DNA of 64,000 bases, taken from Tubiluchus corallicola. Taxonomy: Eukaryota; Priapulida; Priapulimorpha; Priapulimorphida; Tubiluchidae. The DNA lies in the NCBI GenBank assembly GCA_030141605.1, contig JAQGDQ010000178.1:374628-438627 (forward strand). Reading direction: 5' to 3'. Shown one piece after another: positions 60 through 64,000 of this stretch. The first letter of the stretch is position 1; every line of letters begins with the position of its first letter. The notes beneath the pieces are model-generated. The model saw only the letters and a list, made by a program, of their open reading frames with translations, searched no databases and had not been told where the DNA came from. The translations under genes and the position numbers were made by a program.

Positions 60-1357
60 TTAAATACCAAGAAATGCCTTTCGCTTTAAAGCAGATGTAC
101 TTGGTTCTTTGGCGAGAGAACTTGGCGTATGATCTGAAACTAACTCATCCTGTTTTAAAGCAGCTGCTCTTTGCCGTTTAACTGTGCGAGCCTGAACTAA
201 CTTATCTCGCCTTAATGCAGCTGCTCTTTGCCGTCTAACTGTGCGAGAACTTCGCTTGCTTTCTTCAGCCATTTTACAACTTCGTAAAATGTCCTCTAGG
301 CACTCCGCCTCTGTGGATTTTTTAATCTCTCTCAGGTCTGTGTTTTCATAGATGTCTTTTGCTCTAGTTATGAGTTTAACTGTGTGGTCAAGTACCTCAT
401 AGTCATTGGCTCTTTCATCCAAGTTTTTTACAGCCATATGAAATGCTCTCATGATGATCATTCGAAACATATTCAGCAGGTAAATTGCTGCGGAAAAATT
501 GAAAATGAAGAAAAATGCAGGTCCAAACAGAGAGTGCGCATTTTCATAATTATAAAACTTGCCTCCACTCAGTAACATGTCCATCAGTGATCCCATAGAT
601 ATTAAAAACGTATTGAACTCGTAGAGAATGTAGCTAAACACAAGCATGCCAAACAATGCAAACGGCAACAGTACTAATAACAAAATAATCGTGTAGTTAA
701 ATAGGGCATCTACAGAAAAAGCAATTGTATCCGGAAAGAGAAACATCATCTTATTAAATGACAGTATCTTCCACAGTTTGATAGTTACCAAGACGACCAG
801 AAAACCCAAAACATACGTTAGTGTAAAATCCCAAAATGCAGCTGTGTAAAAACTCAAGAATTTTGATTGTTCTGCCCGCTTGTTTTCTTCTAACAAATTG
901 TCAGTGAGTTTTGCCTTTTTCACAAACAGGATGAATCCCGTTAGGGAAAGGACAATAATGCTAAACTCGACACAATTCCAGGTCTTTTTAAAATAGCTGA
1001 ACTTCAGTTTGTTAAGTTGTTTTCCTTCTCTATAGATAAACACTCCAAGTAGCACAAGGTAAAAAATTTGGCTTGATATTATTGTTCCATCTACTGCACT
1101 TGCAAATGTAACCAGGTTCAAAGTAAAAATCTGATACAATGGAAAAATGCCGCCGGTATTACTAAATTCCAAAATCATTAGCACAATGCTGAACAAGTTT
1201 GTGTTGGAATTGAATAGAGTCATCTCGATCATCACGGCTCGAGTGCGATCATCAATCCAACGCGAATCAATCAATGAATCTATAATCAATTCATTCTGTG
1301 AGCGATTGCGAGTCAATTCCATCACATAGCCACCACCGCTGTAGAAAGCTAAATGTC
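60..1357 (-). CDS. Last exon: polycystin domain end, TM7-TM11, cytoplasmic tail
   Basis: 1,298 bp, phase 1, acceptor TTATTACAG; stop codon TAA at 60-62. It starts [11 protein letters not shown] (conserved Y.gGGY), finishes the TOP domain with [14 protein letters not shown], and then has five membrane segments: [12 protein letters not shown] (S2), [18 protein letters not shown] (S3), [20 protein letters not shown] (S4), [20 protein letters not shown] (S5) and [20 protein letters not shown] (S6). S4 has few basic residues, as in PKD1-type proteins rather than voltage-gated channels. The tail carries a duplicated 19-residue basic motif ([11 protein letters not shown] / [11 protein letters not shown]). 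No polyadenylation signal is seen in the 59 bases left below the stop. Confidence 0.93.
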
Positions 1358-4300
1358 CTGTAATAAAAAATGTAAATTCAGAGGACTTATTACAATGCAA
1401 AACAACTAACTTTATGCCAGTGTACAGAAAACTTTGTATACCAGTGTAGAGTAAGTTTTACCAATTATCAGTACTAGTAATGAACACACATCGACAAACT
1501 GATGAATGCAGACCAACTACTACAAGCGCTCATACAGCGGATTAACCAAAATTCAGCCGACCACAACGTTCCACTAATTAAGCGCTCAGTTATAAATCAA
1601 AATGATCGTGATTGCTTAATATAATAAGAGTAACATTTTGTATGTTTCGTCATTAATATCTGCCGTTTAATTACTCAGGGCAAAAAACCTGCAATGCCAT
1701 GTAGAGGTAAAACAACATAAGAGCTTAATGTTCTAAAGTCACTCAACACAACCAAATATTACGTTCGCATTTTAAGAGAATTATAAGCCTGTGACTGGGG
1801 TAGTCACATAAACATTAACAATGGCATTGTTCGTTTGAGAAACTAGCAAGAAGAAGCCGTGTGCACGAGTGCTATGTTTTTACAACAGAAACTTTTGAGT
1901 GAGTAAACAGGAGAACTGGTTGCACCATTAAGTTTAGTAGATCAATGACGTGATGTCCCTCCATTTTAATTAACCTCTTTATTGCTGTATTCCAGCTGAT
2001 GCTCTGGAATATTTTATAGAAAATGAAAAGTTGCTGCTGCTTCTGTCACTGCTGTGTTATCGTGCTGCTGTTTCCCACCCTACAGCCACTGCCACCGCTG
2101 TCACGAACTACTGCTTTTTTGTAAAATATGTAAGCCCAGTGATTCATATTCAAATTGTGTCATTTATCAACCACACAATGTTGAACCAGCCACATCATAT
2201 TATATGCACGAACTGGCTTGACCTATTATCTACTGTTGCCTGATGACATGACTAAAAATCTGGCAAGATAGTTTCTAATTTGTTCTACACTGTTCTATTT
2301 CTGAGCCATTTGAATAGACAAACATTGATAAAAAGCAGAAAAAAGCTACACAGAAGGCAGCAGTCACAATTTAGGCAGACGATACAGCAATAACAGCAAT
2401 CTTTTTTGCAACTTTATCCAACTGAGTAAACAGAAGAAATGATCATTGCAGCATTAAATTCATTGGATAAAAGATGGCTGCTATTTCAAGCTTCAGCTAA
2501 ATATAACTTTCGCAAGTACCTGCATAAGGTAATGTCCGCAATTCCAATGTTGAGCGAAATGTCCAGTGGTCAGTAGGAAAAGAAGGAAACTGACGTTCAC
2601 GCCATCCTGGCGAATACGGGGCGATATCCTCCCAGGGCCAAGAATAAGCAGAGACACACTTCCTTCCAAATGGTTCCATAAGATGATGTATTGAACACAA
2701 ACCTAAAATGTTAAAAAAACAGGCAGTGCAAGTCAATGGAATGCATGGAAGTCACCAAGACAAACTTTTCAAATCACACAGAGAATTTATCAAGCCCTGA
2801 ACAGTACAAAGCTGTGCCTAGCTTCCACCTAGTTTTGACATTACCAACCTGGCTTTATGCGTAATTGTCTCAGTCTCACAACACCAACTAACATCGTAGT
2901 CATATCTGCAGCATATCCGTATGGTGCCTCTTCTCCATTGTACAGTGTATCTGGATGTAAGCTAGGTTGCAAAGTGTTCCGGATGTAATCCCACATGGAA
3001 CTCACAGTTGATATCTATAAACAAAAGAGTATGACGGTGTGATATACAAACCAAAACGAAACTAAAGTTTATTTGAATCAAAGAAGAGCTCTCAACAAGA
3101 AAACAACAACAATCAAACAAAATTACAAACTGCTTTTTGTAATTTTTTGACCAATTTGAGCTTAATAACTTATGACTGGTACCTAAATAATTATTATTAT
3201 TAATTATAATAATTATTAACAATTTATACTGCCATAAACCATATGACAGGTTGAATGTTGAAGCAAATTCCTCTCACTTTACCTTGCAGCATAGGAGAAA
3301 TTAGGTACAACATTCAATCTGTCACAGAAAAAGTTGCATTTGCAGGAATAGGTTTACATATTGTCTCAATGTATAAGGATAGAAACAAACACGGAAAATT
3401 ATCGCCAAAATCATAGCAAAACTATTAGGCATTTTTTAAAAGAAATGTACTTGCCAAGAAAAAGTTATACTTATAAACTGCTAATTAAAAACGCATATAT
3501 TGTCAACTGAAACAATATTTCAGATGGCATAGGAAAACATAAATAAATATTGTTCTGCAGTAAGGTTTTTACTGCCAGCGATGTCACTCGCAGGGACTCA
3601 CATCTCATCCTGGAGGTTAGCAGAACCAGGAGAGAAATCGATTAGCACACAAATTCACGAAAGAGAAAGTTTGGCTCAAACCAGCAGAAGTAGGAGAGGC
3701 ATGGATTCACACACAAATTCACAAAAGAGAAAAGTTTGCCTCAAACTAGCAGAAGCAGGAGAGGCATGGATTCACACACAAATTCACAAAAGAGAAACTT
3801 TGGCTCAACTAGCAGAATCAGGAGAGGCACTCGCTAAACTTAGTTAACCAGTTAAATCACATGCAAATTCACAACAATTAGTCCAAGATTGTTTTTAAAA
3901 AGACAGGAAGACCGCATTTCGGCTGAACGGGCATCTCGCTAACACAAAACACGAAGAAGTTACCCTTGAAAGGTTACTGGACTGTCATATGAATGCCTAA
4001 AACAAATGAACTCTAAAACCTTTGATGATCTGGACAGACTTATGCTGTTTTGTGTTCAACTAGCAACTACCATACTCAAGGATTCAACTGTAGCACATGT
4101 ATTTATCAACTTTGTAGTTTTAGACAGGCAAGAATTCGAATTTGACCAATCACAGAGTTCAGGATATGTGAATTACAAGTAGGTAGGTTAAGGGGCCTTA
4201 AATTAGAAAGGGTGATTTATTTTGTTGTAGTACTAAAGTAACCTACAGAACAGTCACTGTAGCATTGATCACGAAGGTAGAGGGACTAGAAAAGAGATGT

Positions 4301-10300: not shown

Positions 10301-13300
10301 ATTATAGGCAAAATTAATAGCTTAAAAGCAGGATAACTACCTATAGACAATTGTACCCAGGAAAACCTGAATACTTTTCCAACTACTAGTTGATCTTCAG
10401 GATTATCTGTAGGAATCCCATAAAACATGATATTCGCCAACATTGTAGTTAAAAGCAACGTCAAGACACAAGCTAGTCTCTGAAATATAAAAACTAATGT
10501 AAAAATTCTAAGTCCAAGTCTTAAAAAATGACTTATCAACAAGAAAAAGCAGTATTATGCTAAAGCTGGCATTATAACCAAGAAGCCTCTCATTATATTA
10601 AACAGCCATGTTGTACAACTTGACCACTGTACCTGGTCGTCCAATGTTGCATGCTCGGAAATGTTTAATGTTCGAAAATATTGAAGCAATATGTTTGAGA
10701 CTTTTGGAAAAAGCACATTTTGAGCAAAATTTTGTATGTTCTATTGTTTCAACATTTGAGACAGCTTCACAGAAAAATATTTATTAGCGTGAGGCATAAG
10801 GTCAATCCAATAACCAGTACAGTGCACAATTGTTTGTAATGATCCACTAATGTTACCTGAAGTGTGTTGGAGCTCACACAGTAAAAACACGGGCCTTCAA
10901 GCACTATCTTTTTTACAAAAAACGTAAAGAATAGATAGATGATAATTCTAAAGTTACTGAGATAGTTTACATTATACTTGGAGTGTCATAGTTCATCAGT
11001 GTAGTTTGTATTCTACTGAAAATAATAAAAGTTATCAATAGGTTCCATTATGTTGAAAGTTATGGCTGAAATTTACATTTCCCACACACAAGAAATTAGT
11101 TTGTGAAGCAGAAGAGTTAGAATTAGGGTTGGAGTTAGGGTTAGGGTATTTATATTTTGCAGGGAAGTAAAAGCTCCTTCAAAAGTTATCAATATCTTAA
11201 GTATCAAAAACTTCAACAAAAAGTACCTGCACTCTAGTAAAATTGCTGTTTGCAGGCCTCAAGAATATGCTGGCCCAAAGATGGTTATCCTTCATGTCAC
11301 GACGTGTATTATTCTTGAACAAGTTAGAAAACATCTGTAAATAATTAACATTTTAGGTAAAGTTAGACAGAAATGTACCAATATATAGTTTTAGAGTAAA
11401 TGTAGACAATGAAACTAGACTTATTAATCTAATAAATAATCCATAATCAACAATAAACATTTTAAAGTCAGAACAAGCAGTTTTCTAGGAAAAGTGTCAT
11501 TCACTTACAACTTATTAAGAATAAGTAAATATATAAGTAGATGTGCTGAATTAATCCATGCTTAAATTTAACTCACATTTGAAACACATTTTTAAGTCTC
11601 TAAATAACAACAGCTGCCATTTTTTCTTCTGCATTCTCCCAGAGAAGCTAAAGAAGAGTTTGGTTGTTGGTTTAATATGAAAATCTCTCACAAATGTGAC
11701 AATCATTTATCAACAAATCGTTTAAAATTGGCTAAAAAGCAGCATAAAATACAATGGAGGCTGCGCAGACTCACAGTTAATAGAATTAGTCACCTAATTG
11801 ACTTGAAATGCGAATGACTTCATCTGGTGTGGCAAATGTGCTTTAAAACTTAGGCAGCCGACACAAATAAATCTACATAATTGACTCAACGGTTTTGCTA
11901 AAGGTACAAGAATAACTGGAAGCTAAACATTTAATCACTTGTCTAGTGGTTTCCTCTGAAAGCTCCCACTGCTTTTCATTGAATGCATAATCAGTTAACT
12001 GTTGCTATTATACCACTGATACAGCACCAGTAATTTGCCAGTATTCCTTGTGACTTTAGAAGTGTAGACATCACACAACAACTAAGGACATAGAGGTTAA
12101 TTTTGAAAAAAAGAGCATACATATAAAGACTTAACATTTAACGCTCTCGCAGCTCTTGCGCTGCATAATATGCTGAAGACTAATAACTCATACTTCTGTA
12201 CTAGTAATACTGACACCAATCGCCTAATAGATTCAGTTCGTTAATGGGATCAAAACACTTGCATTCCAAAGTGAATCTATTAAACTGTGCCTACTGTATT
12301 CAAATCCCAACAGAATTCTAACACACACAAAATGTAACAACTGCCATGAATGAAACTGGTTACTTATGAAATGATTAGGGATAGTAATTGAAACAGTGTT
12401 AATCTAATGAAGCACAAACAATAACCACAATGTCTGCAAACTTCAAGAAATATATATAATTAGACTTAAATTAAATTAAATGACACTAAATGTGTGGTAA
12501 ACATTTTTCTTAAGTTATAAAAAGTTCTTGAAATGTCACCTGGAGTTGGGTACTAGTGGCTGCAGGAATAGAACAATAGACAGTTTTGTTGCCTCGGTCA
12601 ATAGCTAACCAATTTTGGTAATTAAAAAACCAGGTCTCATTCGTCTGACCGTCTCGAATCACAACTTGATTAAGAAACCTGTAAAATTAACCAACTGATG
12701 AATCACACAGTCAATCAGACAATCATTAAAGAAATTAATTAAAGGAAAACAGGGTGACTTTTCCTGTCACATCCCATTTTAAAGTATGGTAAAAAGTGTT
12801 CATTTTAACATTGTATAATAATGACAAAACGTTTCTGATAAAAAATTAATAGATTAAAAACTTATTAATAGATTAATTAACGGTGTACGAGCCTAAACCC
12901 AACAGATTTTAAATTTAGCTGTGCTCACATGTGACCTCTTACTTCAACACTGGACACTTGTGAACTGAGAGATACAGCACCTGTTTTCTGTGCAACACCT
13001 TTCCGAGATGCAGGTGCTAGCACCCATCTAATTAGCAAATGGCAAAATGCATGTAACAGGGTGGAACTAGACATGCGAACGTGAAATTAAGTTTCTATGG
13101 TAATAATTCTTACAGCCATTCTTGAAAATATAGTATATTCCCTTTCAATATTTCATAGAGTAGACTGTTCCCGGTTTTCCTTCAAGCAAATATCATTCAA
13201 TCAACTAGCCAACTCATAAGAAACAAATCTTTGATAATCTAATTATAATGGATTTACAAAGTATGAAGCAAACGGAACAATTTTGTTTAGATTTATTACA

Positions 13301-16300
13301 TTCAACAGATAAACCTCTAGTATTTCATACATCAACATATCAGAAGACTGCATAACAGGATTAAAAAACATGAATACTTTGACTTGATTAGCAGAGTTCA
13401 ATTAACTTGCCATTCAGGGTGGCTTCCAGCATTATCATGCCATAGCTCAATAGCTGTCAAGTCACCAAGACATTTGTTTGTGGTCAGCATGAACCAGTCT
13501 TCTGCACCTCTGTGCATGATGGTTCTTGTCTTGTCCTCCAAAATGACCGGGTTGCTGGACATGTTCTTACCTAATACATTTAAATAGTAAATTAATCAAG
13601 CTGTGTTCTTAAAGCAAGTATCTATACACAAGTCGATCAAAAGGTTTAGTAAATTAGTCTTTCTTACAATATTCTAATCCTTGGCTGCTTATGACTCAAC
13701 AAATCACCAAATTGGTAAAAAGAGCATAAAAAACTAAAGTGCAAATGCAACACAAAACAACCCTAACCAAAGCATACTGAACTCCTACTTTAATACCATA
13801 GAAAGTCCTTTAGTTACAAACAACTTTCAGTACTGCTTTGCCAAAAGAACAATTTATTTGATAAAAACTTTTTAATGGTAGTACCTATAAGAACAATGGC
13901 AACGTGAGCTGAGGTGCCGGCACCATTCATTATCCCAGTGTATGTCGTAATCAAGTAAACATAAGTATCATTTGGACTATTGTCTTCTAATAAAGTCACA
14001 CCCAACTAAGAACAAATTACAGTTAAATTAATAATAACCACTAAACAGTTCGACTTTTCTTATCCCATAAAAACAAAATCTATAGTAGACCAAATGCAAA
14101 TTTAGCAGTAATGGCGGAACAAGAGAAGCTTTCTTTGACGTAAAAGTCCTTCATCGTAGTACAGCAGCAACAATGTCAACAAACAAAACGAAACTGCAAG
14201 CACACTATTTGCCAACATTTGAAAAAGCTCACTATACATTTACGATGCATTGCTTCTTAAACTTTAAAATTTGTTTTAATAAGATTTCATTGTTATTTTT
14301 CAGATAAAATGCTGCTTGTTCTAAGAAGTCTTTCGTAAACTATTGGCATCATTACATTGTAACACTGACAGTCCATGAGCACTGTTCATTTTGAGCCAGA
14401 CGTCAATCAGAGAAGTAGAAATATCCATATTTGTCAAATAAATGTAACTACATCAAAATGCAATTTATTGCCGACCGGTTTCAAACAAAACAGAATTATG
14501 AAATTCTGTTCTGTTGCTACTAACATAATGGCTTGTTGGTTTGTGGAGTGTTAAACAGTTTCTTACTAATCAATATATGTAGTATGTAAGATAAATTGCT
14601 AAATTATCTATATAATATTATACCATATATCTTTTGGCTATTAACAACTGAATTGTATTTTGACGTTGCTTCTAAATTCTGGTAAATTTCTTTATTTTAG
14701 ATGTCCTAATATTGAACAGTTTTGTTCAAAACTGGTTGGCAACAAATTCCATTTTAATCTAAAAGTGTTGTAAAATGCATTGTGTTATTAAATATAAAGT
14801 TTATTTACACTATACACTGACATAGAAGACATTCAATAAACTGTACACAAATGTCTCAGAATAAACTGTTTAACAAATTTGTTGTACAATCACTTTATTT
14901 TACTAACCCGAAGCTCGTCCACTTTATCTTCTCTCCTAGCATATAAGAAAAACACGAAGCAAGTTATCCAAATGAGCACAACAAAAACCACCACAACCGG
15001 ATTATCAAAAAATGTAAGAAACAAAGCAGCATCTTTGAACGGATGAATCTCATTCGGTGTTGCAAGAAGACTTCCACCAAATATTGACATGTGTGAACAC
15101 TGGCAGTGTATCTGCTGTGGAGAGGTGAAAGGGCCAACCTGAAATTAAAACTCCAACTTGAATTCAGTAAAAATTTTAAAGGCTAGGAAGTAATAGGTAG
15201 CACAGCTAGTTATCTTTGATACGCGTTTTGAACATTTCTGCAAAAATAAACGTGCATTACCTCAATTTCAAATTCTATGCTGGTCTAACACATTAGTTCA
15301 GAAAATCAGTGACCAGATACTATAGATCATAACTACAGATTATATATTTATAAGATAGAATTGGCTAAATTTGTATGTAATGACTAGAGGCTATAGATCA
15401 TAAGTAGGGGTTATTTACAAAACAGAATTAGCTAAATTTGAAAAAAAAATAACAGGCTTAATGTCAGAACTTATTCTTGGAAGGACCGGGTTTTTACCCT
15501 GTCATAATCACTTGTTACCCTCTCATTATGCAGGTCCTGCCATTGAAGGCATATTTTTGTGCCGGTTACAGCTTGCAAAAAATGCATCATCTCTTAATTA
15601 AAAAAACTACCTGACACCCGTCATCAGACCATTCATCCAGCGTTTCATTCCAATAAAGACATCGTACTGATTGAAAAGACAAGTTGAAGTTGATGTAGAA
15701 CAGCTCAACGGGTGCTGAAATAAACAGTTACATTTATACAAGGCAAGTAAGCTGTAAAAGCCAGTACTGAATATAATGTATAAGATGATAAAATTAAAAT
15801 TTAACTTCCATCTTTACATTGATTTACTGAGATTACAATGAGTTTCTCTCTTTTTATTTGGTGCAGTAAAAATGTTTAATCACTTCTTCGTATTATTAAC
15901 GGACATGGGACACCTATACATTGAACTAATGACCCATGGCTAACAAGCACTCTTTAGCATTAAAATTACCTAGCAATACGATGTGCTACAAAATGCAAAT
16001 GACCAAGTACGCATCTAAATATATGCAAGTAAAACATGTTATAAGAAATCATTTAACAATCATTTAACAACTGCCCCTGCCATCCCAGCCCCCTTTGACC
16101 ATGTACACACATTGCTTTGTCCAGTTCACAAGAAAAGAGTCAGCCATTGGAATTGGAGGATTAACTAACCTTGCAGTGAAGATATGATAAAACATCATTA
16201 TTTGGAAAGCGCCATTTTGAGAATCCAAGATGGCCACCAAGTTGATTATTGTAAAAAATGGAAAGATAATTTTTAGGTTAAAGCAGATCCTTAGCTCTCC

Positions 16301-19300
16301 AAAACCCTATAGGATATCTAACCTCCAAAATTTTTTAAGGAACATTATGTATGAGGGAGGCTAAATGCTTGATTTGGACTCAAAATATCATTTAAGTAAA
16401 AACATTTTTACCTGGTGTGTCATTTGCAGATAAGTAACAAGGAAACTCTACTCTTTCATCCGAAATCGTAAACCACTTCATGCAAGGACAAGTAAATGTG
16501 AGATAGCTTGTTGTTATTACTACCTAAGTAAACGTGAAAACAACTTGATACAACATAGGTAAAGATTGTAACTATTAGCACGAGTTATTTCAGCTAATTC
16601 TGGTCTTAGTGTACTCATCAGTTTAAACACGTATTTATTTTACAACCTTTGGACATTCTGTAAAACTGATACAAAAGTCCACTGGATTACAGAGATAATA
16701 CAAAACTCGAAAGATAAAGTGCATAATTAGTATCTACATAACAATTAAACAAGCGTATTAATTAATGAAAAAGCCAGTGGCAATCTAGCAAGTATTAAAC
16801 AAACGAATGTAAAACATGTAATGTTATCAACGGAAAGTATTGAATTTAGCTTAAGTTTAGGTTTAATATAATTACACACAACAGTTAATATACTACAATT
16901 TACCAAGATACTAGTTGTCATGTATTGATAATACTGCGTATGAATAGCATAGTAGTGCGGATGGTTAGGAGTTGTTCGGTTTATGGCCGCGAGGCATAAT
17001 AGATTAAACTTGTTTCTTATTAGATAAATGAAGCCCATTTCGTGTTTAAAATAATAAAGAATTACAAATATAACAGTGGCGAAGAGTTTATGAAGAAACC
17101 GAGACTTGTCTGCTGTAAACCACAGAAACCGTAAGTTAGTCATCTATTGTTAAAATGGAAAAAACTGTTATTCCAAAATTTGATTGCCTGTCTGACCCAG
17201 CAACTTTGGGCACGCGCTGGCAAAGGTGGCTGACGTCATTTGAACTGTATGCAGACGGCAAAGGTCACATCGTTGGAGAAAACGCTGCTGCAGCAGTATG
17301 ACAGCAGAGACGTGTGCTTTTGTTCACTTAGCTGGCACCGATGTGCAAGAGATCTTTCGCACATTGCCAAACACTGGTGAAGCCAACGATTACATTGCGG
17401 CAGTGAATGCTTTAAACACATATTTTGTACCGCAAATTAATCCAGTATTCGCTCGACAAACTTTTCATCAGTTAAACCAGAAACAAGGAGAGACTGTACT
17501 ACAGTTTGTTACTCGTCTACGGACTGCCGCATGTGATTGCGAATTTGGCGGTGATTCAGACAATCAGATTTGTGACGCTGTGCTGTGTAAGTGTAATTCG
17601 GATTACATTCGTCGTAAGTTATTAGAATCTGACCAAGACTTAACGCTTGCTAATGTGTTAGATATTGCAAATAAATGTGAGAAAGTTGAATCTCAGATGA
17701 CATCGTTAGTGGGAACTCCAAATTCCGCTGAAAAAGACAGTTGCAATCTAGTGCACAGCAAAAAGCATAATTATGCAAAGTCGCGAAAATTTGCACAACT
17801 TAACTCCCCAGGAAAAAAGAAAAATTCTGGAGCCTGCTACAGATGTGGATCGCTAGATCATTACGGACGTGACCCAAATTGCCCAGCCAAAGGTCAAACG
17901 TGCAAAAAGTGTGGTGGCAGAGATCATTTTGCCAAGGTATGCAAGACCAAATTAAATAAGTTGAATAAAACTGGGACCAAATATGCTAATGTTAATCAAG
18001 TGAAAAATGGTTCGGATGATGAAAACTGTCACTATGTTTTTGTAAGAAAAGATCGCCTGAAAACAAACATGATAACTGTCAATGCAGGTGGTGTAGATAT
18101 GGAGGCAATGGTGGACTCTGGTGCTACTTGCAATCTTATTGATGAAAAGATGTGGGAAAACTTAAAGCGAAATAAAATAACATGCAAATCATGCGTGGCT
18201 TCATCTGGAAGAAAGCTGTATACTTATGCTTCAAAGGAGCCTCTATCGATTAAAGGTACATTCACATGTGAAGTTAAAACTGGTCAAAAATGGACAGATG
18301 CTGAATTTGTTGTAATCCATGGTGAAGGTGTTCCATTGTTGGGTGAGGAAACTGCGACAACATTGGGAGTACTGAAAATTGGCACCGAAGTTGCTGCTGT
18401 GAGTACTGAGGAATTAACACTTAACAGTTTAAAAACGAAATTTCCAGAAGTGTTTCAAGGCGTTGGCAAGCTCAAAACCAGGCAGGTGGAGTTGCACATT
18501 GATGAAGCAGTAACACCTGTAGCACAACCGTTAAGGAGAACTCCCTTCGATTTAAGGGGCAAAGTTGAGGAGAACATACAGGAACTTTTAAATCTAGATA
18601 TCATTGAACCGGTAGATGGTCCAACCCCTTGGGTCAACCCTGTAGTGGTTGCACCAAAGGACAAAGGTCACATCCGGTTATGTGTTGATATGCGCTGTGC
18701 AAATGAGGCAATTATCAGAGAACGTCATCCGATTCCGACAGTTGATGAAGTACTGCAAAACATGAATGGTTCAAAGGTATTTAGCAAACTAGACCTAAAA
18801 TGGGGGTATCACCAACTTGAATTATCTGAAAAATCGCGTGAGATAACAACCTTTGTGGTACACTCAGGACTATATCGAAACAAACGACTTCTGTTTGGGG
18901 TCAATTCTGCAAGCGAACACTACCAGTATATGATAAGTTCTGCCCTGGCTGGACTCGAGGGTGTACAGAATATTTCTGATGACATAGCAGTATATGGTCC
19001 AGATGAAGACACACACTATGTATGATTATTAGCTGTCATGCAGAAATTATCTGAAATTGGCTTGACCTTTAACCCAGACAAATGTATCGTCGGTATGAAT
19101 CGGTTAGTTTTCATGGGGATACTTCTATCTGAGAAAGGTATAGGTCCAACTGAAGAGCGAGTAAGAGCCATCGAAGATGCATGAGAGCCGGAAACTGTAT
19201 TGGAAGTTCGTAGCTTCTTAGGACTCGTTGGATTCAGTAGCCGATTTATCCCAGATTTCGCTACTATATCGGAGCTGCTTCGCAAGCTAACTCGAAAAGG

Positions 19301-22300
19301 AGAACCATTTAAATTTGAACCAGAACAGAAGGAAGCATTCAACTTGCTGAAACAGTATGTGAGAGAAGATACTCGCAAACGGAGAAAGAGGCTTTAGCAC
19401 TGGTTTGGGCATGCGAACGATTTCATGCATACATGTATGGACGCAAGTTTGAACTGTTAACTGACCATAAAGTTTTCCAAATATTTACGGACCTAGATCA
19501 AAACCATGTGCACAAATAGAACGTTGGGTACTACAATTGCAACCGTATGACTATAAAGTAGTTTACGTACAAGGACAACAGAACATTGCTGACCCACTAT
19601 CATGTCTTTTAAGAGTAGAGGATACCAGCAATCATGAACATGGTGCAGAGGAGTATGTACAGTTCATTGCAGTTGAAGCAACTCCTAATGCATTAACAAC
19701 TAAGGAAGTGGAACAATTGTCAGGTTCTGATGAAAAACTGAAGTGTGTTAGAAAAGCTATAAAGACTGGCAAATTTGAAAACTGTAAAAACTATGCACCC
19801 ATAGCGAGAGAATTGTGCATAGTTGGACAATTAATCTTACGGGGAACACGTATTATTCTACCTACTAAGTTGAGAATGTAAGCTTTCAATCTGGCACATG
19901 AAGGACACTTAGGAATTGTTGGCACAAAACAAAACCTTCGAACCAAGGTGTGGTGGCCTGGCATGGATAAAGCAGCGGAGAAATTTTGCAAGTCATGTCA
20001 TGGATGTCAGATTGTTGCTCGTCCTGATCCGCCAGAACCATTGAGGCCTACGGTATTGCCAGATGGACCATGGCAGGACCTTGCCATTGATTTACTTGGT
20101 CCATTACCTTCTGGTCATTCTATATTAGTAATCATTGATTATTACAGTCGATACTACGAGTATGCAGTGATGATGTCAACGACAGTGGATAAAGTCATAG
20201 AGTGCTGTGAAGAGGTGTTTGCTCGTCACAGGTTACCTGAAACAATGAAATCCGGCAATGGACCACAGTTTCGATCCAGGGAATTCCACCAATTTTGTCT
20301 ACAAAATGGAATCTCTCATTTAAAAGTTACTGCTCGATGGGCACAAGCTAATGGAGAATGGAGAAGTTGAGCGTCAGAATCACTCTACTATGAAGCGCAT
20401 CAGAATTGCACAAGCTGAAGGCCGTGATTGGAAACGAGACTTAAGAAAATATGTTGCCAAGTACCGAATGTTAGAACATCAGACAACTGGGAGAAGCCCG
20501 GCTAAATTATTGTTTAATAGGAAACTGCGAGGAAAGATTCCAAGTTTTGAGTTAATCAATGAAAATTTAGAAATAGTTGATCGTGATGCAGTAGAAAAGG
20601 GGAAATCTAAGATTTACGCAGACTCAAGACGTAATGCTGAATATTCCTCGGTGGAACCAGGTGACAAAGTCTTGATGAAAAAAGATCAGACAAACAAATT
20701 TTCGACACCATTCAATCCAGAACCACATACGGTTATTGACAAGACAGGAAACAGTCTTGTAGCGTAATCTCCAACTGGAGTTCAATACTCGCGAAATACG
20801 AGCCATGTAAAGAGATTCAGGAGTAGGAGAGATGAGACAAGCACGCAATCATCGAGTTCCACGACTCCTTCTGACATATCTATTACTACTGATATGGAAG
20901 CTGAGAATGAAAGTTCTGAAATTTCGATCAGAAGATCACAGAGGATTAAAAAGAGACCCATAAAGTTTAATGATTATGTACTTAATTAAACTAGTTTACA
21001 GTGTGTATTTTTGTTCAATTACAATTTACATTAACAGCTTACAGGATTTAAATTTAGACATATCAAGTCATTAGTTTCAAGTGTGATGTTCACTTATTTG
21101 TTAGCTTATTCTACTTATAATATTGTGTTGGTAAGATATCGCCAAAATTGTGTTATTTCTACAACAGACTTTTCATTAGCAATTTAAGTTTCTGTCTAAA
21201 TGGGAAAGAGAAGTCATGTATTGATAATACTGCGTATGAATACCATAGTAGTGCAGATGGTTAGAGGTGGTTCGGTTTATGGCCGAGAGGCATAATAGAT
21301 TAAACTTGTTTCTTATTAGATAAATGAAACCCATTTCGTGTTTAAAATAATAAGGAAGTACAAATATAACATTAGTGATCTGGAGTAAATTATGTAAAAT
21401 GTATGCTTGCTTTAACATTATTATTCAAGTTTTCGTAATTTCCAAGATCTTCATTGACAAATAGATTTGACATTGATAACATCATACAAAGTGTAGTAGC
21501 AATAGACAGCTGTGTATTCATTGCTGTGCCATGCTTAGTGACACAAGAGTTATGCTGTAAAAGGAAAAATAACTTCCCGTGTGTACATGTATTTTTTATT
21601 TTTTACTGCAGGAAAACATTAAAGGATCCTGAGTTATCAGCAACTTGCACTATTTTCTGCAGCTATCACTAAGCTACCATTACTTGAAATTTCAGCTAAT
21701 ATCAGATCTAGTAGTTGTAATCATCAAATCACTGGTCTCAAGATATTTTACTGCTTACAAAATTATTTTGCAATTTACTTGAGAAAGTGTCATACCTTTT
21801 CTAGCAGCCAACCTGTCTGGAAAAATGATTTCTGAATCCACATTGTAACACTTTGCAAAAGTTTTACAGTTCTTGTGGAATACATGAACCTATCAATCCT
21901 ATAAAAATAGATAAAATTAACAGTAAGGTACAGACTAACCTATAACGTGCCTGCTTTACATCTGTAACTCTGTGTGCTTTATACAAAAGACTTTAAAAAC
22001 CTTTAAATAATTTCTGTCATGTAATTTTACCCTGTTGTTCAGTTACAGTCAATGATAAAAGCCTCATAGCAGGTTTCTGTTGAAGTTATAGTCATTTTTA
22101 AATATGCCCCCAGAAATTTATAGAAGCACCTTTTTTTATAATTTTCTTTTAGCTTATGATGAGCATGCATGTCTCTTAGTAAAATTTCAACCAACAGACA
22201 ATAGCGCCATCTTCATTTTAGAACATAACGGTATAAAACATTAATGAAACATACAAACGTATGAAAAACAGCTGTTAAGCACAATTGATGATTCTTTTAA

Positions 22301-25300
22301 GTAATTGTCGCCTGCAGATTCTTCAAAATAATAAATCTATAGCAACCGTTAACCCTTTCACTATGCAATTGCATCTTAACTGGGCTGCATTGACTTTTTG
22401 CACGTTTGACAATAGCTTCTTGTAGTGCGTTACTAAAATAGAATCTGGTAAATAAACAAATATGAGTTTGTTATTAAACACTAATATTGAATATTAGTTC
22501 TATTTGTATATATGTACACAAAAACGTGCATGCAAGTACTCACTTAATTACTCATGCACGCACTTGCACACATACACACGTTAAAAGAAGACTTAAAAAT
22601 GAGTGTTCACAAAAGTCACACGACTAATTTAAAGCATACAATCATTTTATAAAAAATGCAGAAAAAGTGACTAAACATAAGTTTCATTAAACATCAACAA
22701 GTGATTTTGGGTGAGAACTCATCATGCAGTAGAGTATCGTAAAATGCACGTGGCTTCAGATGGTGAAAGGCTGGTTAGTGTTATTCCTAATCCCAAGATT
22801 GTTAAACTGTTTTACAATGTTCTTGCATGGATGTATCAACAAAATAAACAGGTCCGAGCAATTGGGCTTAGTGCTGAGTTCTGGCGACAGTCTGACGCCG
22901 TCCGTCCCACACACAAAAAACGTAGGCAGCACTGTGCCGCCTTCTATAGTGTAAGGGTTGAGCGACCACACAATTTTTTTTCTTTGTAGAAATAGATGTC
23001 AAATGGAATATGCATGCAATCCTGCTCGTTGTATTAGAATCAAATCACATAATAAATAAAAAATAAATAAAATACTGTGTAGTAGGCCTACAATATAAAA
23101 TGTTCAAAGCTCAACGTAAACTTTTACCAAAAGGCAATGAAGGTAGCACCAACTTACTGTGCACGTCCAAAATTATTGTTCCCACCAGCTAGCTCAAAAA
23201 TGGGTGATATACCACCAGTTCCATGGAGTTCAATAAACACCCTAGCGCCAGTGCCGCTATAATCCGTATCAGCCGTGTATGTTTTTATGTAGTAAGTTGA
23301 ATCATCTGACAAAAACAAAAAAACACAAACTTACTATCTTTAGTTTTGCTGACAGAAACTACTATATTGTCTTGTACTTGTTACAAGCCTGGGAACCTAC
23401 ACAGGACTTTCTAAATAGCTACCATTTTGAAAAATGCAAATGAAAAACAAAAAAAATCATACAATGTGTTTACTTCATCACAGTACCACAATATGAAAAA
23501 GACTTGACAGGGTTTACGTACTTATAATATATGCTCTATATACTGTATAGCCAATGAGACGCTTGGGTGACTCACCGTGTGGGGAAAGTACTTTTCCGTA
23601 TCACTGCCTGAAGAGTCTAGACACCCACTGCCTGAAGCATCTAGACACCCGAGGGAATAGAGGGATGCAGTCCTTGCTTTGTCCAAGTAAATTGGTGAAT
23701 AGGTTATAAGATTAGGGTTGTAAGTGAACAAATACGAAAAGATGGATATAGAAGATAAACATTAGAAAAAAATTCTTATGCAATATCTCACCAAATTTCT
23801 TTTTCACTTCAAGCTACAAAATTGAAATATAAGAAAAAGCCAAGCAACTCACCTGTATAAAATTTCTCGGCGATATCAGCATCATACATAATAGGAGGAT
23901 CCTTTGTCCACCAATTTTTCGCACAAAACGTTTTCTTCTTTTTGGTAAAATTTGTGCAATTGACTGAAGCATTGAAATTGCATATATTCAAATTTAATGA
24001 ACATTCATCAAGGCAGTCCTGACGCAGTGCAGAATCGCAAGGAGGTTCACACAAATGACACTGCTTGACACACTCAATAACACTGACATTGCAATGTTCT
24101 GTGACATATGCACTGCACTCACCATAAATATTCCTACAATGTTGCCTGTCCACATCTAGCTGTATTGTTTGAACACAAGCAGAGTCGTACTGATAGATGC
24201 ATTCAGTGGTGCCTTCACAGTATCTGCTTTTTTGATCTAAACAAGTTGATCTCAGATTTACACATGTAAGCTGACACTCTTTAAATTCATACTTACAATA
24301 ATCAATGCAGGAAGAAACTTTTCTATCACAATTTGCGTTGCACTTGCTAAGTTCATTTGTGCACTTATCAACACAAGCAGTATCAGTTGTTGTACAATTG
24401 CTTACACATGCATCTTGGTTAGTACTACATTCTTCAGAACAAGTATCTTTCTCCACTTGACAGTCACCTCTACGTTTGTTCAAAAACTCTTTGCAGTTGA
24501 AGTCACAATTCATGTAAATGCCATGACAAGTCTCATTCACAACCTCAAGACAGTCTTTCAAACTGTTCTCACATTTTTGAGAAACATTTTTACAATAATC
24601 AATCCACTCATTGTAGCAGCGATATTTCTGCAAACAAGCATCAACACTGCAGCTTCTAGATTTTTTATTGTTTTTACACTCAGAAGAAACTCTCTTGCAT
24701 TCTTGTGATGGATCAAAACAAGGAGGAGTCAAATATTCATTGAACATTATGCCAATGTAGTAGTGAATTGAACTGCTGCGATTGTTGTATAATACTACAC
24801 TGTTATCTGGTTGGTCACTTGTAAAAAATGACTTAGCATTAGGAACGGGAATGTCATAGACGGATGAAAAATTTGAAAAATCTTCAAGAACTGGCCTTAC
24901 ATCCTCTTTAAAAATGACCTGAAAATTAGAACAGTTTTATAACAAACTCATCAAGAAGCATACCAAGTCAAATATCACATGCATTCGCTTAAGTATCAAG
25001 TGACATCAACGGGACGTCAGACGTTACCTGGGGCCCAGGAAAAAGTACTCCATAACCGTGATACTCTATAAGCATACACTGATAATAATATGTATATGAC
25101 TACTTAATAGATAGACATGCATGTAATAATAATAAGTGTACAAATAATGTACAATCTGTGGCTTCATAGAGAACTTAAATATACTTTTCAAAGATGTTGA
25201 CAAGTATCAACTACTTTACAGTATATTCAGATTCTAAGAAATACACTTCATGTGATTTCAACAAACAAAAATTGATGAACGTTTCATATCAAATTTTGTG

Positions 25301-28300
25301 TACCCATTCTGCTGTAAATTTACGTGACAGGTTCAATAAAGTCAAGTGGGATTCAAAACAGCTGGTCAATTTCGTTTATGCAAAATTTTCGTTTGATACT
25401 TGAGTTTTTGTCACATAAAAAGTTTTTGCAGCAAAGTAACTGCAGTAGGATTCATCACTTGAAACTGTTAGCTCATTAGCATGCTGTCAGTGTAGGTACA
25501 TAGATAAAACAGCTGGTGCTACACTAGTATGAGATCTTTGGACACATGTTAACAGCTTCGCATACTCCATAGCCAACAACTTTTTGCAGCTCCAGGTGTG
25601 GCGCGTTAAATTTAACCGTAAATTAATTTGCAAACGACTGGCAAAGTTAAAGTACGAAATAAAAACCAATAAATATATAGTTATACAGGCAATCTGGCCC
25701 CATAAAAAGTCCACAATATGCAATAACAAAGTGTGCAATAATGTAGTAATAATAACGATGACAGTTTTTTAGTTTTTGTGAGTTTGCATTACTGATGCGC
25801 AAGCAATAAACCATGTCTGCTATAATAGTGTTATACTGCATCTATTATACAATCAACTATAAGCTGTCCAAGTTTTACCACAGGACTGACCATACGTCTA
25901 ATTGTAAGTTTTATCACTGACAATCATAAGGAAGCCTGGTACAATGTCTGGTACATAATCTTGTAATGTAGTCAGTAACAAACATAATACTTGCTAACTC
26001 CATCAATATAATATTTTAGAAAATAAAATAATCACTAATTCAACTTAAGCAAGTGGCTAAACTTAATTAAACAAGATTCGTCATTCTTCTTATTTTTCCA
26101 AAAAATAATTTACAAAAATGGCAACCAAAGTTTTTTTTTAATAAAAACAAACAATATTTTACGTACTTTTAAAGTTGCATTCTTTTGCAAGCCCTCAAAA
26201 CCCAAAATGAAGAAACTGTAAGAACTGACAGTGAAATTGTAAACAGTGATATCTTTGTCAGTATAATTTCCATAATGCTGGACCACAAAAGATGCAACCA
26301 ATGAATCACTTGTTGCTGTAAATATTCAAAAAAATTAAAAAATCATTACTGCTTCATTACTCAATCTTTCTTAGTTTACTCTTCATAACTTAAAATTGAC
26401 AATGATAGCTTGTTAACACTGCCTTTTAATTTAGTTTGGTTTAAATATAGTTAATTTATTGTAATATGACAGGGATTACAATATGGCTTGAACAAAACAG
26501 TTTTACAACTGATAGACATTCTTACCAATGGAACATAACACTTAGAAGAGTGCAGACAATAAATGAACAGTAGAAGCATTAAATTCAAATTCAGTTTATT
26601 TCACCAGCAGACAAGCAAACTACAATAATACACATTATAAATGTACAACTTTTTTGTATAATTCAAAAAACAACAACAACAAAAATAATTTCTGATTCCA
26701 TAAACATAGCAATTATAGTGTTGAAACTTGTCGCATGGGAGCTATAAAGATGACCTTACTAAGCCAAAATGAAATGTGAAACGAAGAATGAAGATAATGA
26801 GGAGAATAAAGAAGAGCTATGCTGCAGTTAGTAGAAAGAAAACAGAAGAAAAGAAGTCAAACGAAAACATGTTCAGAATAGCTGCAGCTGATTTTTGACA
26901 AGAAATCATCGCTGGATGCCGTAAGACTGACAGGAAAAACCACCCAAGTGAATTATTCACTATTAGAAATAAGACAGAAATGTACGCTATTTCAAACACT
27001 TTTTAAAAGTATTTATAGATTTGCTGTTGTTAATGTTTGGACGAATATTGTTCCAATATAAAGAGGCTGTGAATTTAAGAAAATGTCTATGAATATTCAT
27101 TCTACAGTACAATAGGGTACAAAATACTCATTAAGACAGGTATTATTGTGTTTAATCACATAAGATTGGATAAAAAAGTAGTTGGAAATAAACTGAAATG
27201 TGTTTTGTACATATATGTAGAGAAGTTAAATGAAATTAAATCTTCTAAAATTGAAATACTACAGTTTCGAAGTAAGTAGTGATTTAGTTAGTTGTCTATT
27301 TTCTTTGATATCTATTTAAGATAACCAAGTCTGTAGGATAAGTTCTGCCCCATAACACAAAACAATGTTAAGCAAGGAAAAATTAATGTATTATATAATG
27401 ATAATAAATAAAATTTACATGGTTTATATTTGATATATGAAATTATTCAAGGCTTTTGCAATTTTTGACTTATCGTGTTTACATGAGGCTGCTTCCAATC
27501 TAAGTTTTCATGAATGACAATTCCCAGAGATTTGAATGTACTCACACGCTCGATCAAACAGCCATCGGTATACATATTTATATCATTTGGAAGTGTTTTG
27601 TTTTTGTTATGAAAAATCATGCATTTTGTTTTGTAGGGATTAAGAGATAATGTTATATGAGAACAATCTGTAATTACAGGTAGCGTCTCATTTATCTGTT
27701 TTATGGAGTAAGAAGATGGACTGAGAAATAAGGTTGTGTCATTAGCAAACTGAAGTAGGTTCAAGTTGTGTAATAAGTTACTTAAATCATTTATGTAAAG
27801 CAAGAACAACATGGGTCCCAATATGGAACCCTGAGGAACGCCACATTTCATACCCGACAACAATTCTAACTTCTTACTTGTTGAGTATGACTGGCTAAGT
27901 AACTGACAAACAAGGTATTGGTTGTGCCTCGAATTCTATAATGAGTCAGTTTTTGAAGAAGAATTGAGTGGTCTATAGTTTCGAATGCTTTTCATAGGAC
28001 ACAGAAAATGTCTGCTGCTAGAGAGTTATTTTCAATAGTGGCTACAATAGTGGTTATAGTGCATCACTATTTTTGAAAAGGGGTATCATTACAGCTTGTT
28101 TTAAATTTGTTGGGAACATATCCACACTAGGTGATGCATTTATTATATATGACTAATAGGTGTAGCAATGGATGGCATTGGCATGGTGTCATGAAATACC
28201 TTGGGAGAAAAATTGTCTATTCCTGGACTTTTACTTGAGTTTAACGTTTTACAGATGCTTATTACCTCGGCAGGACTAATTGGTTTAAAAAAAGATCTTA

Positions 28301-43051: not shown

Positions 43052-46000
43052 TCAATAGGAAACACTAAAAGCAGTCTCAACTAACACCAGAGACTTCTTG
43101 GTATAATGCCAACTGTACGAGGCTGATATACGCTCCGCTGAGTCAGAGACACTAGTCAGATATCATGTGTAGAATAATGCCAGTTATCATGTTTGCAAGC
43201 TGTACCGTACAATGTACATCGCTCATGTAAACAAAAACTCCTTAAAGAAGATGAGTGAGTCGTTAATTCACAGATGATTAATTTAATAATTTTTTTTTAA
43301 TTCATTAACTCTTAGAGTGAAAATTGAGGACACTAACCTGTGTAAATTGGACTGGCTGTTGTGATTTATCTATGGGAAAATTTAACACACCTCGTTATAA
43401 TTCAGACTTTTTTCTGATCAAAAAGCGGGCAGTATAAAGAGTATTGACTATATGCATAGATCGTCATTATCACTTCATAATTTTAATTAAACACTGTTAA
43501 TTGTACGCAATTAAAAAACACAGACTAAATTATGTTTTAAACTTGTGTAAATTATTGACATTGAAAATAGTTGTTGCGAGGGCAGCTAAAAAGACGTGAT
43601 AAACAAAATACTTAGCTATAAAAATGTATGTAACATTTGAGATGCAAAAAACCTAATATATTAATAGTAGCTTAAAGGCAGAAATTTCGTTACTTTTTAG
43701 GCACTGCTACTGTAGCATTTTCAGATTGACATGCAATGCTAAATGACAAACCAGAAATAGATATCGTTGTATGATAACGTACAGCGCTCGCTTGTTAAAC
43801 TCCGCTAGCCAATTCATGTACATGATGTGCAAATACATAAAGAGCAGTGAAAATGAAACACATCACCACAATTTCAGAATCACAATCAATTCATAATTTC
43901 AGTTCATAATAGTTGTAAAAATTTAAATGGTTTAATTACTCATACCGTTAAAAGGAAGGAGAGTCACACTATTATCAAAACATCCTGGGACATTAGGATC
44001 AGGAATGCGGCCTGTACCAACATAGCAGTACCATGTATACCTTAAATAAATAGTCATTAGTGTTATTTATTTATAAATTGCTAACTTAATCAAATTTATA
44101 CATTGCTAAGAAATCAGTCTGCAAGTAAATAGACAGTTTCGTTTCCATTGTTACATTATTTTACAAGTTTATAGTGATTCTATTACATTTTGTTTTTGCT
44201 TTGAAATCAGATATAATTCCCAATAGTTATACGATACTTACAATCATTGTGAAATTCATATTTAAATGATTGTTTAACAAAAATCCAACAAATAGTGAAA
44301 ATTGTTTATTTGTTCTTACATGTAAGGAGGATCAACATGATTGGTGTGATTTATACCGTAAACAAATTCGTGATACGTATATTGATCAAGCTGCTTGTTG
44401 TTTGCTTCATTTACAGTTTTGCTAGCATAGTATTCATCACTCTCATGTCCAAAACCAAACTCGTCATCGTTGTCCATAGTTAGATAAGTCCAGTGTTCAT
44501 GCCCAGGGTCGCTGTATGGAGGATAGTCAGGATCATACGACGCAGAACCATTTATCACAAAGCTTTGATTCCAATTGATATACCTGACGTCACCTCCTTG
44601 CAAAATTGGCATTAATTCTGAGGGATATATAATGATCCAACCCTAGATAATACAAGTATAGGCACAAATTAATATGTTTTGTATCAATTTAAAACAGTAA
44701 CATGCTTTTTTGTAATTAAGATATGTATCTTTTTACACCTAGAATGGAGAAACTAACACAGAGTTTTCTACTAATAAAATTTAGTAATTGCATTATTGTA
44801 TTACCGAAGATATTAAATTACTCAAAGTGGAGTTTAATATTTCTTAGAAAAGGGTGAGAAAATCTGTGCAATTCCTAAAAGATACATGTACTGCTTCAAC
44901 ATGGAAATATGTCACATGCCAAAGACTACATGAATAAAATTAACATGAATTAAATCACCTGGTACGTATTTTTCACAACATTTTCTGTCTGTTCAGATAA
45001 CACTGCCAAACGTATGACATATGTCCCTGGTCGTAGAAGCTTGGAAGGTACTATAAAATAGTGGAGAGACGCATTAACACTTTTAGGCAGTTTAATTAAA
45101 TTTGCCCAAGATGGAACAGGGTAATCTTCAGATATGCGAAAGATGTGCCATTCATACCGCAGCTGAACTTTCCTGGTGCAAGTGTCATATACTATTGAGG
45201 ACACTATGAATTCGTCACGAACTCTAAACTTTGGTGCTTCGCTACGACTATAACCAACATTAACAAGATCGATGTTAGGCAAGCAATCATCTGGATTGTC
45301 AAAAACGTTAAAGGTGAGAGATGCATTCCAGTAAACCCAGCCTTCGATAGAGCTATGTGCAGTAACCATATACGTTCCTTTTTTAGCATAAGAGTGACTG
45401 TATTCACACGCCACTCCAGGGATGGTTTCACTAACAGCAATACCTAAAATTTTGTGAGCGCATACAGATGTTTCTTTAATAGGAATAAACTTTTCATGAT
45501 CATAAGTGAATGTGAATTGATCACCCATGTCCCACTCAAACACGACATCTCCAAAAGTTCTGGAGTCATTTGAATATATGAGAAAACAAATGGCATCACC
45601 AGTGTCATATGCAGGCAGATGCTCATCCTCTTCTTTCTTCTCCTGGAGTAGGACCAAATTTCGAAATTTATCTGAAATAGTTGCATTTAATAAACTGGAG
45701 ATTACAAACTGTCCTTATAAGGCACAACAGTTGTACTTGATGGTTTAATCTATAACAGTATAACAACGTAATTTAATCTTATAATACAGGACAGTTGTAT
45801 CTTTACCAAGCAGAAAATGCTACTAAGATGTGACCAGCACCTTAATTTGGATATGGATCTTTCACGTTTCTAAGCAATGACATAAGTCCTCACCATTGCA
45901 TCATCAAACGTGTCTTCTTGTATTGCACAAGTTTTTGTATACATTGTTCTACACATAGTTTATTTAATATAAACTCATTCTAAACACATGGTCATTATAA

Positions 46001-59836: not shown

Positions 59837-60481
59837 CTAAAAACCAATGAAAATAAATTTTGCATAAGGGCTACCGAAACAATAACAAACATCATTTGTA
59901 ATCTTTAAAATTGACAATTAAAATTATTATAAAATAAAATTAAGGTAAAATAGGCTACTTAAATGATCACATCTATTACATACCAATTCAACCATAAAAT
60001 TATAACTTGCCCACCAAATGCTATATAAAGTCTGCTAAGTTCCTCTCTCACAAATAGCTTCGGAACAGTGGTATGCAAAATAAGTTTTTCGTATAACGTC
60101 ATATGACGTGGCACATTATCTGCTGGTTTGGCTACAGCACTGAAAATGTGATAACTCCCAAATATTTGATATTTTGCATACAGCTGCTACATTCTACCAT
60201 TCACTGTACAACTAAAGTAGATTTACCTTTTTTTCAATAATTTATTGAAAACCTGGAACTACAAGATAAAAAATAAAATTAAACATCTGATTGCTTTTTG
60301 TTTTAAGTTTATAAAAAAAAAGCAAGAGAAGGTGTCCCTCAAATGAGAAGTTGAGAAAAGCGCTGACGCAGTAAGTGTAAATGAATAAAAATTTCAACCA
60401 CCAAAAAATGTTCGAATCGGCGAAAAACAGATTTGCCCTCAGAGACGTCAGACTTGTTTCATTATATGTATCATTTACTTC
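59837..60481. other. Stretch upstream of the SUEL exon, no gene recognised
   Basis: The preceding exon (phase-1 donor, signal peptide) should be upstream of 59836. I looked on the minus strand for an ATG, a hydrophobic stretch and a phase-1 GT donor and found no convincing candidate. No promoter motif stands out. Confidence 0.5.
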
Positions 60482-63400: not shown

Positions 63401-64000
63401 CACCTGAACATGACTGTCCTAAAACTCTTGTTTTTCCTGAACACGACTGTCATAAAAATCTTGTTTCTCCTGAACATGACCATCCTAAAAATCTTGTTTC
63501 ACCTGAACACGACCGTCCTAAAAATCTTGTTTCACCTGAACACGACTGTCCCAAAAATCTTGTTTCACCTGAACATGACCGTCCTAAAAATCTTGTTTCT
63601 CCCGAACACGACTGTCCTAAAAATCTTGTTTCACCTGAACACGACTGTCCTAAAAATCTTGTTTCTCCTGAACATGACCATCCTAAAAATCTTGTTTCAC
63701 CTGAACACGACCGTCCTAAAAATCTTGTTTCACCTGAACACGACTGTCCCAAAAATCTTGTTTCACCTGAACATGACCGTCCTAAAAATCTTGTTTCTCC
63801 CGAACACGACTGTCCTAAAAATCTTGTTTCACCTGAACACGACTGTCCTAAAAATCTTGTTTCTCCTGAACATGACCATCCTAAAAATCTTGTTTCACCT
63901 GAACACGACCGTCCTAAAAATCTTGTTTCACCTGAACACGACCGTCCTAAAAATCTTGTTTCACCTGAATATGACCGTCCTAAAAGACTTGTTTCACCTT
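60482..64000 (+). repeat. 33-bp minisatellite, at least 106 units, running off the window end
   Basis: Unit: ctaaaaatcttgtttcacct then gaacacgaccgtc. Variation is mainly ac/at in gaacac/gaatat, gt/at in cgtcct/catcct and tttcacct/tttctcct. Since 33 is a multiple of 3 and the unit lacks stops in several frames, long frames appear on both strands (plus: HDRPKNLVSPE; minus: GETRFLGRSCS). Small deletions (about 61110, 61325, 61365, 61725, 62055, 62225, 62995, 63330) shift each frame, arguing against coding. In 63481-63960 a 198-bp higher-order unit (6 x 33) repeats (63481, 63679, 63877). It begins about 0.65 kb upstream of the SUEL exon, so it lies in a 5' intron or upstream of the gene. Confidence 0.92.

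Follow-up and report, generated by a model that had tools for sequence, protein, structure and literature searches.

A cysteine-rich ectodomain module with a predicted disulfide-ladder hairpin in an expanded family of polycystin-1-like receptors

Introduction

Polycystin-1, the PKD1-like proteins and the sea-urchin REJ receptors share an arrangement in which REJ, GPS, an intracellular PLAT, the polycystin domain and the PKD channel follow one another in the usual order. Polycystin-1 receptors are thought to be activated by the stalk behind the GPS, which acts as a tethered agonist (PMC11458180), and both sea urchin and Ciona use polycystin-1-like proteins when sperm and egg recognize each other (PMC1934368, PMC7018956). 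According to the sea-urchin REJ paper the PLAT domain is always intracellular, and the word cysteine is absent from the main text of that paper (PMC1934368) and from that of the Nematostella polycystin 1 paper (PMC8846589). Outside the receptors, the alpha-hairpinins of plants are peptides with the motif C-x3-C-Xn-C-x3-C, in which Cys1 pairs with Cys4 and Cys2 with Cys3 between antiparallel helices (PMC7191063).

Here, we analyze a stretch of 64,000 nt (the window) from contig C2157 of a 343.5-Mb animal genome, which carries a polycystin-1-like receptor gene on its - strand. The gene keeps the domains of the known receptors in their usual order, but its upstream strands and GPS are separated by two additions, a Cys-rich domain and an extracellular PLAT. 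Because PLAT has been stated to be always intracellular (PMC1934368), the extracellular placement is itself unusual.

Exon structure and receptor architecture

The Cys-rich exon is 1066 nt long and is bounded by an AG acceptor at 24920-24919 and a GT donor at 23852-23851. Its 24747-23853 translation is open and contains 41 Cys within a span of 266 residues, first and last Cys included, in agreement with a preliminary description of the window that had counted about 41 Cys in about 260 residues. Together with six neighboring exons of 103-231 nt, it gives one uninterrupted reading frame of 637 codons, in which the phases agree and all borders are AG/GT (Table 1, from 26315-26167 to 15138-14908). 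The exon is real, and it is, as first described, one uninterrupted exon within a finely split gene. Skipping it would shift the frame, because 1066 is not divisible by three.

We then compared the gene with an intronless paralogue on contig C1882 (a 2739-codon ORF), which matches the window gene exon by exon in a tblastn search that spans the REJ region (near 45 kb) through the channel (63-1457). Pfam recognizes the REJ, PLAT, polycystin and channel domains, with the REJ scoring 155.6 bits in the paralogue and close to its cut-off in the window; a scan of 30 kb read in a single frame, its stop codons masked, gave no matches. The spliced stretch 3' of the Cys-rich exon matches Pfam PLAT (26.6 bits, cut-off 23) and then GPS, which precedes the first transmembrane segment and has H-M-S at its predicted cut site. 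The domain order is upstream strands, Cys-rich domain, extracellular PLAT, GPS and first transmembrane segment, followed by the intracellular PLAT, further segments and the channel. Both PLAT stretches that Pfam detects in the paralogue have exon-by-exon counterparts in the window by tblastn, from which the edges of the intracellular PLAT exons were taken. By its domain content, with channel and polycystin domain, GPS, REJ and intracellular PLAT all present, the window gene is a member of the polycystin-1-like (PKD1) family. No GAIN match is listed by Pfam for the C1882 ORF, and the GAIN-like strands of the window are assigned from their position. The Cys-rich stretch had been placed between these strands and the GPS; it does precede the GPS in the polycystin ectodomain, but the three exons of the extracellular PLAT, missed earlier, intervene.

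Several other features accompany the gene. The intron between PLAT exons 2 and 3 holds retrotransposon-like ORF pieces (17244-20764, + strand), with zinc knuckles, reverse transcriptase and integrase recognized by eye, and the alignment of the window to a near-identical copy on contig C1409 breaks between 16588 and 21373. Just past window position 1 lies a second copy of the gene's last two exons, channel included (L034, C2157:371190-373871), on the same strand and a few kb downstream; it could be a partial tandem duplication, an alternative 3' end or an assembly artefact. At the other edge, 60385-64000 is a long repetitive, satellite-like stretch in which several frames are open on both strands.

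Table 1. Features of the receptor gene in the window, listed from 5' to 3' of the gene
Feature	Position (strand)	Basis or remark
REJ domain start, far upstream; open frame holding the exon	44953..45714 (-)	Pfam 25.2 bits, cut-off 25
Upstream exon, beta-strand-like, GAIN-like by position; 3' end in phase 0 before the Cys-rich exon	26167..26315 (-)	tblastn to C1882, splice sites, frame
Cys-rich exon, 41 Cys	23853..24918 (-)	translation, splice sites
Cys-rich domain, first to last Cys; core common to ~36 loci	23923..24720 (-)	23-member alignment, Cys spacing
Predicted hairpin A, arm 1 (Cys 52-118 of translation)	24394..24594 (-)	AlphaFold helix 43-116, mirror pairs summing to 243
Hendecad C-x3-C-x6 array, ~66 residues added relative to most paralogues	24241..24462 (-)	alignment, spacing
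Predicted hairpin A, tip (6 residues between Cys118 and Cys125)	24376..24393 (-)	model helix break 117-122, center of Cys mirror
N-C-T sequon (N117) at the edge of the hairpin A tip		
Predicted hairpin A, arm 2 (Cys 125-191)	24175..24375 (-)	AlphaFold helix 123-190, Cys mirror
Module B (second Cys-rich half)	23923..24138 (-)	4-7-8 Cys steps as in hairpin A; fold without confident prediction
Extracellular PLAT, exon 1	23158..23305 (-)	Pfam PLAT on spliced translation
Extracellular PLAT, exon 2	21796..21898 (-)	tblastn to C1882, Pfam on spliced translation, splice sites
Extracellular PLAT, exon 3, and link to GPS	16412..16523 (-)	tblastn to C1882, Pfam on spliced translation, splice sites
GPS exon 1 (CLYWN...W...GC)	15611..15714 (-)	Pfam GPS 34.4 bits, cut-off 22.5
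GPS exon 2 (C-x-C-S-H-M-S, with the cut predicted at M/S), also holding the first transmembrane segment	14908..15138 (-)	
Intracellular PLAT	13410..14005 (-)	exons near 13883-14005 and 13410-13571, continuing near 12519-12677
End of the polycystin domain, with the PKD cation channel; coordinates of the exon's open frame	63..1457 (-)	PKD_channel 1.4e-36, Polycystin_dom 9.6e-24

The domain family

Genome searches seeded by the window exon and by two distant members recovered the Cys-rich domain, with an open frame, at a minimum of 36 loci, a count that contains evident duplicate contigs (e.g. C225/C2061 and C1442/C1633), so that distinct genes are fewer. Most of these loci have a polycystin channel exon either within their own ORF or, on the same strand, 15-40 kb downstream; the other channel exons of the genome have no detected Cys-rich neighbor. 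The preliminary description had noted that no polycystin is known to carry such an insert, and had named homologous inserts in relatives as support. Such inserts exist as paralogues within the same genome, and what stays limited, to four loci, is a ~66-residue array. From these comparisons, the Cys-rich domain is a module common to ~36 loci, with only its middle ~66 residues special to the group of the window gene.

Five loci carry the domain within intronless polycystin ORFs of 2437-2748 codons, already in frame with its neighbor domains. These ORFs, on contigs C1882, C198, C1930, C1923 and C2172 (L016-L019 and L031-L033), have broken pieces with stops nearby, and apparently form a retroposed and re-expanded receptor subfamily. 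As they look like retrocopies, a spliced germ-line transcript containing the Cys-rich domain would have existed. A further locus (L030, C2295:12501-16500), recovered through its rhythm only, repeats 11-residue units (DRCLMNCTDWL, for example) over a long tandem array whose Cys likewise show C-x3-C spacing.

We compared the domain with known families. The window exon has no Pfam family match, including to EGF, follistatin, LDL-A and the GDNF receptor, in keeping with the original remark that its pattern differs from the first three. The 23 aligned members gave four single Pfam matches only, with E 0.08 or worse and none of them Cys-rich. A profile search of PDB sequences returned no match, collections of viral and prokaryote sequences contained no relative of the domain, and a literature search by title or abstract for the Cys spacing pattern or for disulfide ladders found nothing similar. 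Glycerotoxin, raised by a text match, was dropped, since its paper brings up polycystin solely in connection with a WSC domain that both have. The gene encodes a polycystin-1-like receptor whose ectodomain module, for which these searches found no Pfam or PDB sequence relative, is probably new.

Cysteine spacing and predicted fold

The alignment of 23 members has 31 invariant columns, of which 27 are Cys. The numbers of residues between successive Cys are nearly fixed, at 6-6-7-x-7-4-5-7-6-6-7-6-3-(loop 5-12)-3-6-7-5-7-12-6-7-6-3-2-3-7-3-6-7-10. The aligned members keep a C-x3-C-Xn-C-x3-C core around this loop, which is 5-12 residues long, has extra Cys in L014, and is extended into the array in four loci. 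In these four (the window gene, L002, L003 and L004), ~66 extra residues with a C-x3-C-x6 rhythm occupy the variable loop, and the domain outside the array is ordinary for the family. The array Cys of the window translation are residues 96, 103, 107, 114, 118, 125, 129, 136, 140, 147, 151, 158, 162 and 169. The i, i+4, i+11 rule proposed for them is exact for residues 103-169. No tandem repeat is detectable in the DNA of the array, and the 11-residue rhythm therefore survives only in the protein, mainly in its Cys.

The same Cys had been predicted to lie along one face of a helix, and their directions at 98.2 degrees per residue agree, with a resultant length of 0.96 that was equalled in none of 20,000 random placements. 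An AlphaFold model of the window sequence, run as a single sequence (mean pLDDT 57, pTM 0.36), contains two long helices at residues 43-116 and 123-190 that turn at a break at 117-122; pLDDT is 75-94 at residues 81-170 and poor elsewhere. VIA-align comparison of this model found antiparallel hairpins such as PI3K iSH2, a common shape, and among the families listed only generic helical hairpins. The iSH2 and the dynein stalk resemble the model in overall shape as antiparallel two-helix hairpins, but have no sequence relation to it (4-11% identity), and their Z of 8-10 is within what long helices alone give.

In a compact, non-helical module, be it a beta solenoid or a cluster of Cys that binds metal, the 11-residue rhythm would set a loop length instead of a helix face. 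That AlphaFold without an alignment tends toward long helices favors such a module for the so far only predicted hairpin; we nevertheless consider it quite unlikely, as the hendecad spacing and its helix-like angles speak for a helix, and the extracellular placement argues for oxidised Cys.

For the helical hairpin, we examined how its two arms would be paired. Around position 121.5, ten pairs of Cys within residues 50-195 sum to 243, three of which (74-169, 66-177 and 52-191) use Cys outside the C-x3-C part. With a free center, the mirror symmetry of single sequences is not significant (P 0.17-0.76), L004 being the exception (P 0.0025), and the mirror score of the whole domain is 12 for a sum of 221 as against 13 for 243. 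Because a periodic array mirrors itself and 221 scores nearly equally, the weight of the symmetry argument falls on the core with its center fixed at the variable loop, where five rungs of the consensus match within one residue (P 0.007, shuffling).

Members carry 30-42 Cys, and the number is even in most paralogues. L004 has 42 Cys and an unbroken ladder, whereas the window copy has 41, lacking the Cys at position 92 and keeping its predicted partner, Cys151, so that one Cys is unpaired or bonded elsewhere. One free Cys or more, and Cys on one helix face, would also suit bonds between chains: a disulfide zipper along which a polycystin lies beside a second polycystin or another partner. We regard this arrangement as unlikely: the extra residues at the variable loop lengthen both of its sides, as a hairpin tip would, the AlphaFold model turns at this loop, and the even Cys counts of most paralogues count against it.

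Overall, the model and the spacing support, short of proof, a first half (hairpin A) that is more probably than otherwise an antiparallel helical hairpin stapled by disulfides. The rod or hairpin stack first suggested survives to this extent: its helical hendecad stripe holds, and its ladder pairing is deduced from Cys positions and a single-sequence model. Some paralogues have indels inside a predicted arm, such as nine Asp-rich residues in L005 and L007, which argues against a strictly continuous helix in every member. The second half (module B) alone gave an unusable AlphaFold model (pLDDT 38). However the halves fold, their four arms start with the same 4-7-8 steps (2e-6 in shuffles, for arms picked after the pattern was seen), and their half-profiles align with an hhalign probability of 83%; the domain may therefore stem from duplication of one hairpin.

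Selection and exchange between loci

Relative to L004, a 60% paralogue, dN/dS is 0.12-0.20, with 0.19 in the Cys-rich exon and 0.12 in the array, where synonymous divergence is near saturation and the ratio is rough. In the array, 14 of 14 Cys are kept in L004, as against 28 of 60 other residues. By these ratios, the Cys-rich exon is clearly under purifying selection. This bears on whether the array is a decaying repeat expansion without a role, as its presence in four loci only and the absence of one ladder Cys in three of them might suggest. We find such decay very improbable, since the frame is open in all four loci, all array Cys persist at a synonymous divergence of ~1 or more while the DNA repeat has gone, and the low array dN/dS disfavors it.

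L002 is collinear with most of the window's first 47 kb, where 4.6% of the sites outside the listed exons mismatch. It probably represents the second haplotype of this locus, or may instead be a recent duplicate. Of the coding segments compared between the two copies, none is as divergent as the array (19/222 sites, 8.6%, versus 170/6157, 2.8%, in the other listed exons; Fisher P 3e-5). At 16 array sites, the window agrees with L003 and L002 differs; in its outer introns, L003 is far diverged from the window and from L002. Array matches to the diverged L003 against the near-identical L002 are the mark of gene conversion between loci, and we read 24241-24462 as a conversion tract with this paralogue.

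The array's divergence and its matches to L003, together with the known part of polycystin-1-like proteins in sperm-egg recognition, would fit a diversifying recognition surface, for gametes or self/non-self, in which a fixed Cys scaffold carries a tip rewritten by gene conversion between paralogues. As the main account of the domain this is rather unlikely: array dN/dS is below one in five of six pairs, the comparison rests on two near-identical copies only, and the tip is only modestly more variable in other close pairs (27% versus 11-24%).

Discussion

Our preferred explanation is a disulfide-ladder hairpin, lengthened by the array, that would act as a stiff, tip-presenting arm beside the GPS; as a whole, we give it about an even chance. 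The exon encodes a domain of two tandem Cys-rich halves, probably rich in disulfides, that belongs to an expanded polycystin-1-like receptor family. In the first half, two antiparallel alpha helices would form a hairpin held together by a disulfide ladder, with Cys i of the translation bonded to Cys 243-i (118-125, 114-129, 107-136, 103-140, 96-147 and 85-158, then 81-162, 74-169, 66-177 and 52-191). In the window gene group, ~66 residues would have lengthened the hairpin at its tip in 11-residue steps that added rungs, taking each arm from ~33 to ~66 residues (~100 A if fully helical). The domain sits with PLAT between the GAIN-like strands and the GPS, where a stiff, protease-resistant arm would most likely show a changeable tip to a ligand, the matrix or another cell, and contact or force at the tip would pass to the cleaved GPS region and the tethered agonist. 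Given what polycystin-1-like proteins do between sperm and egg, the tip may itself have a part in recognition, but array dN/dS, below one in five of six pairs, speaks against it.

The core of hairpin A has the same C-x3-C-loop-C-x3-C form as the alpha-hairpinins, a likeness that we note without claiming common descent. The alpha-hairpinins are short secreted peptides with four Cys and two rungs; here, the domain is part of a receptor ectodomain with 30-42 Cys and up to about ten predicted rungs. The module may be a new helical disulfide-ladder fold. More tentatively, the receptors might be a family in which a two-part ladder hairpin and an extracellular PLAT precede the GPS, with length changing in 11-residue steps and tips being exchanged between paralogues, so that length and specificity evolve separately.

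If a rigid, length-variable arm does stand by the tethered agonist, the family would offer a natural test of how the agonist is reached by force or binding, and it provides some three dozen loci that either have or lack the added arm length. The possible disulfide-ladder fold may also be useful as a design template, because its rungs seem to be added in 11-residue steps.
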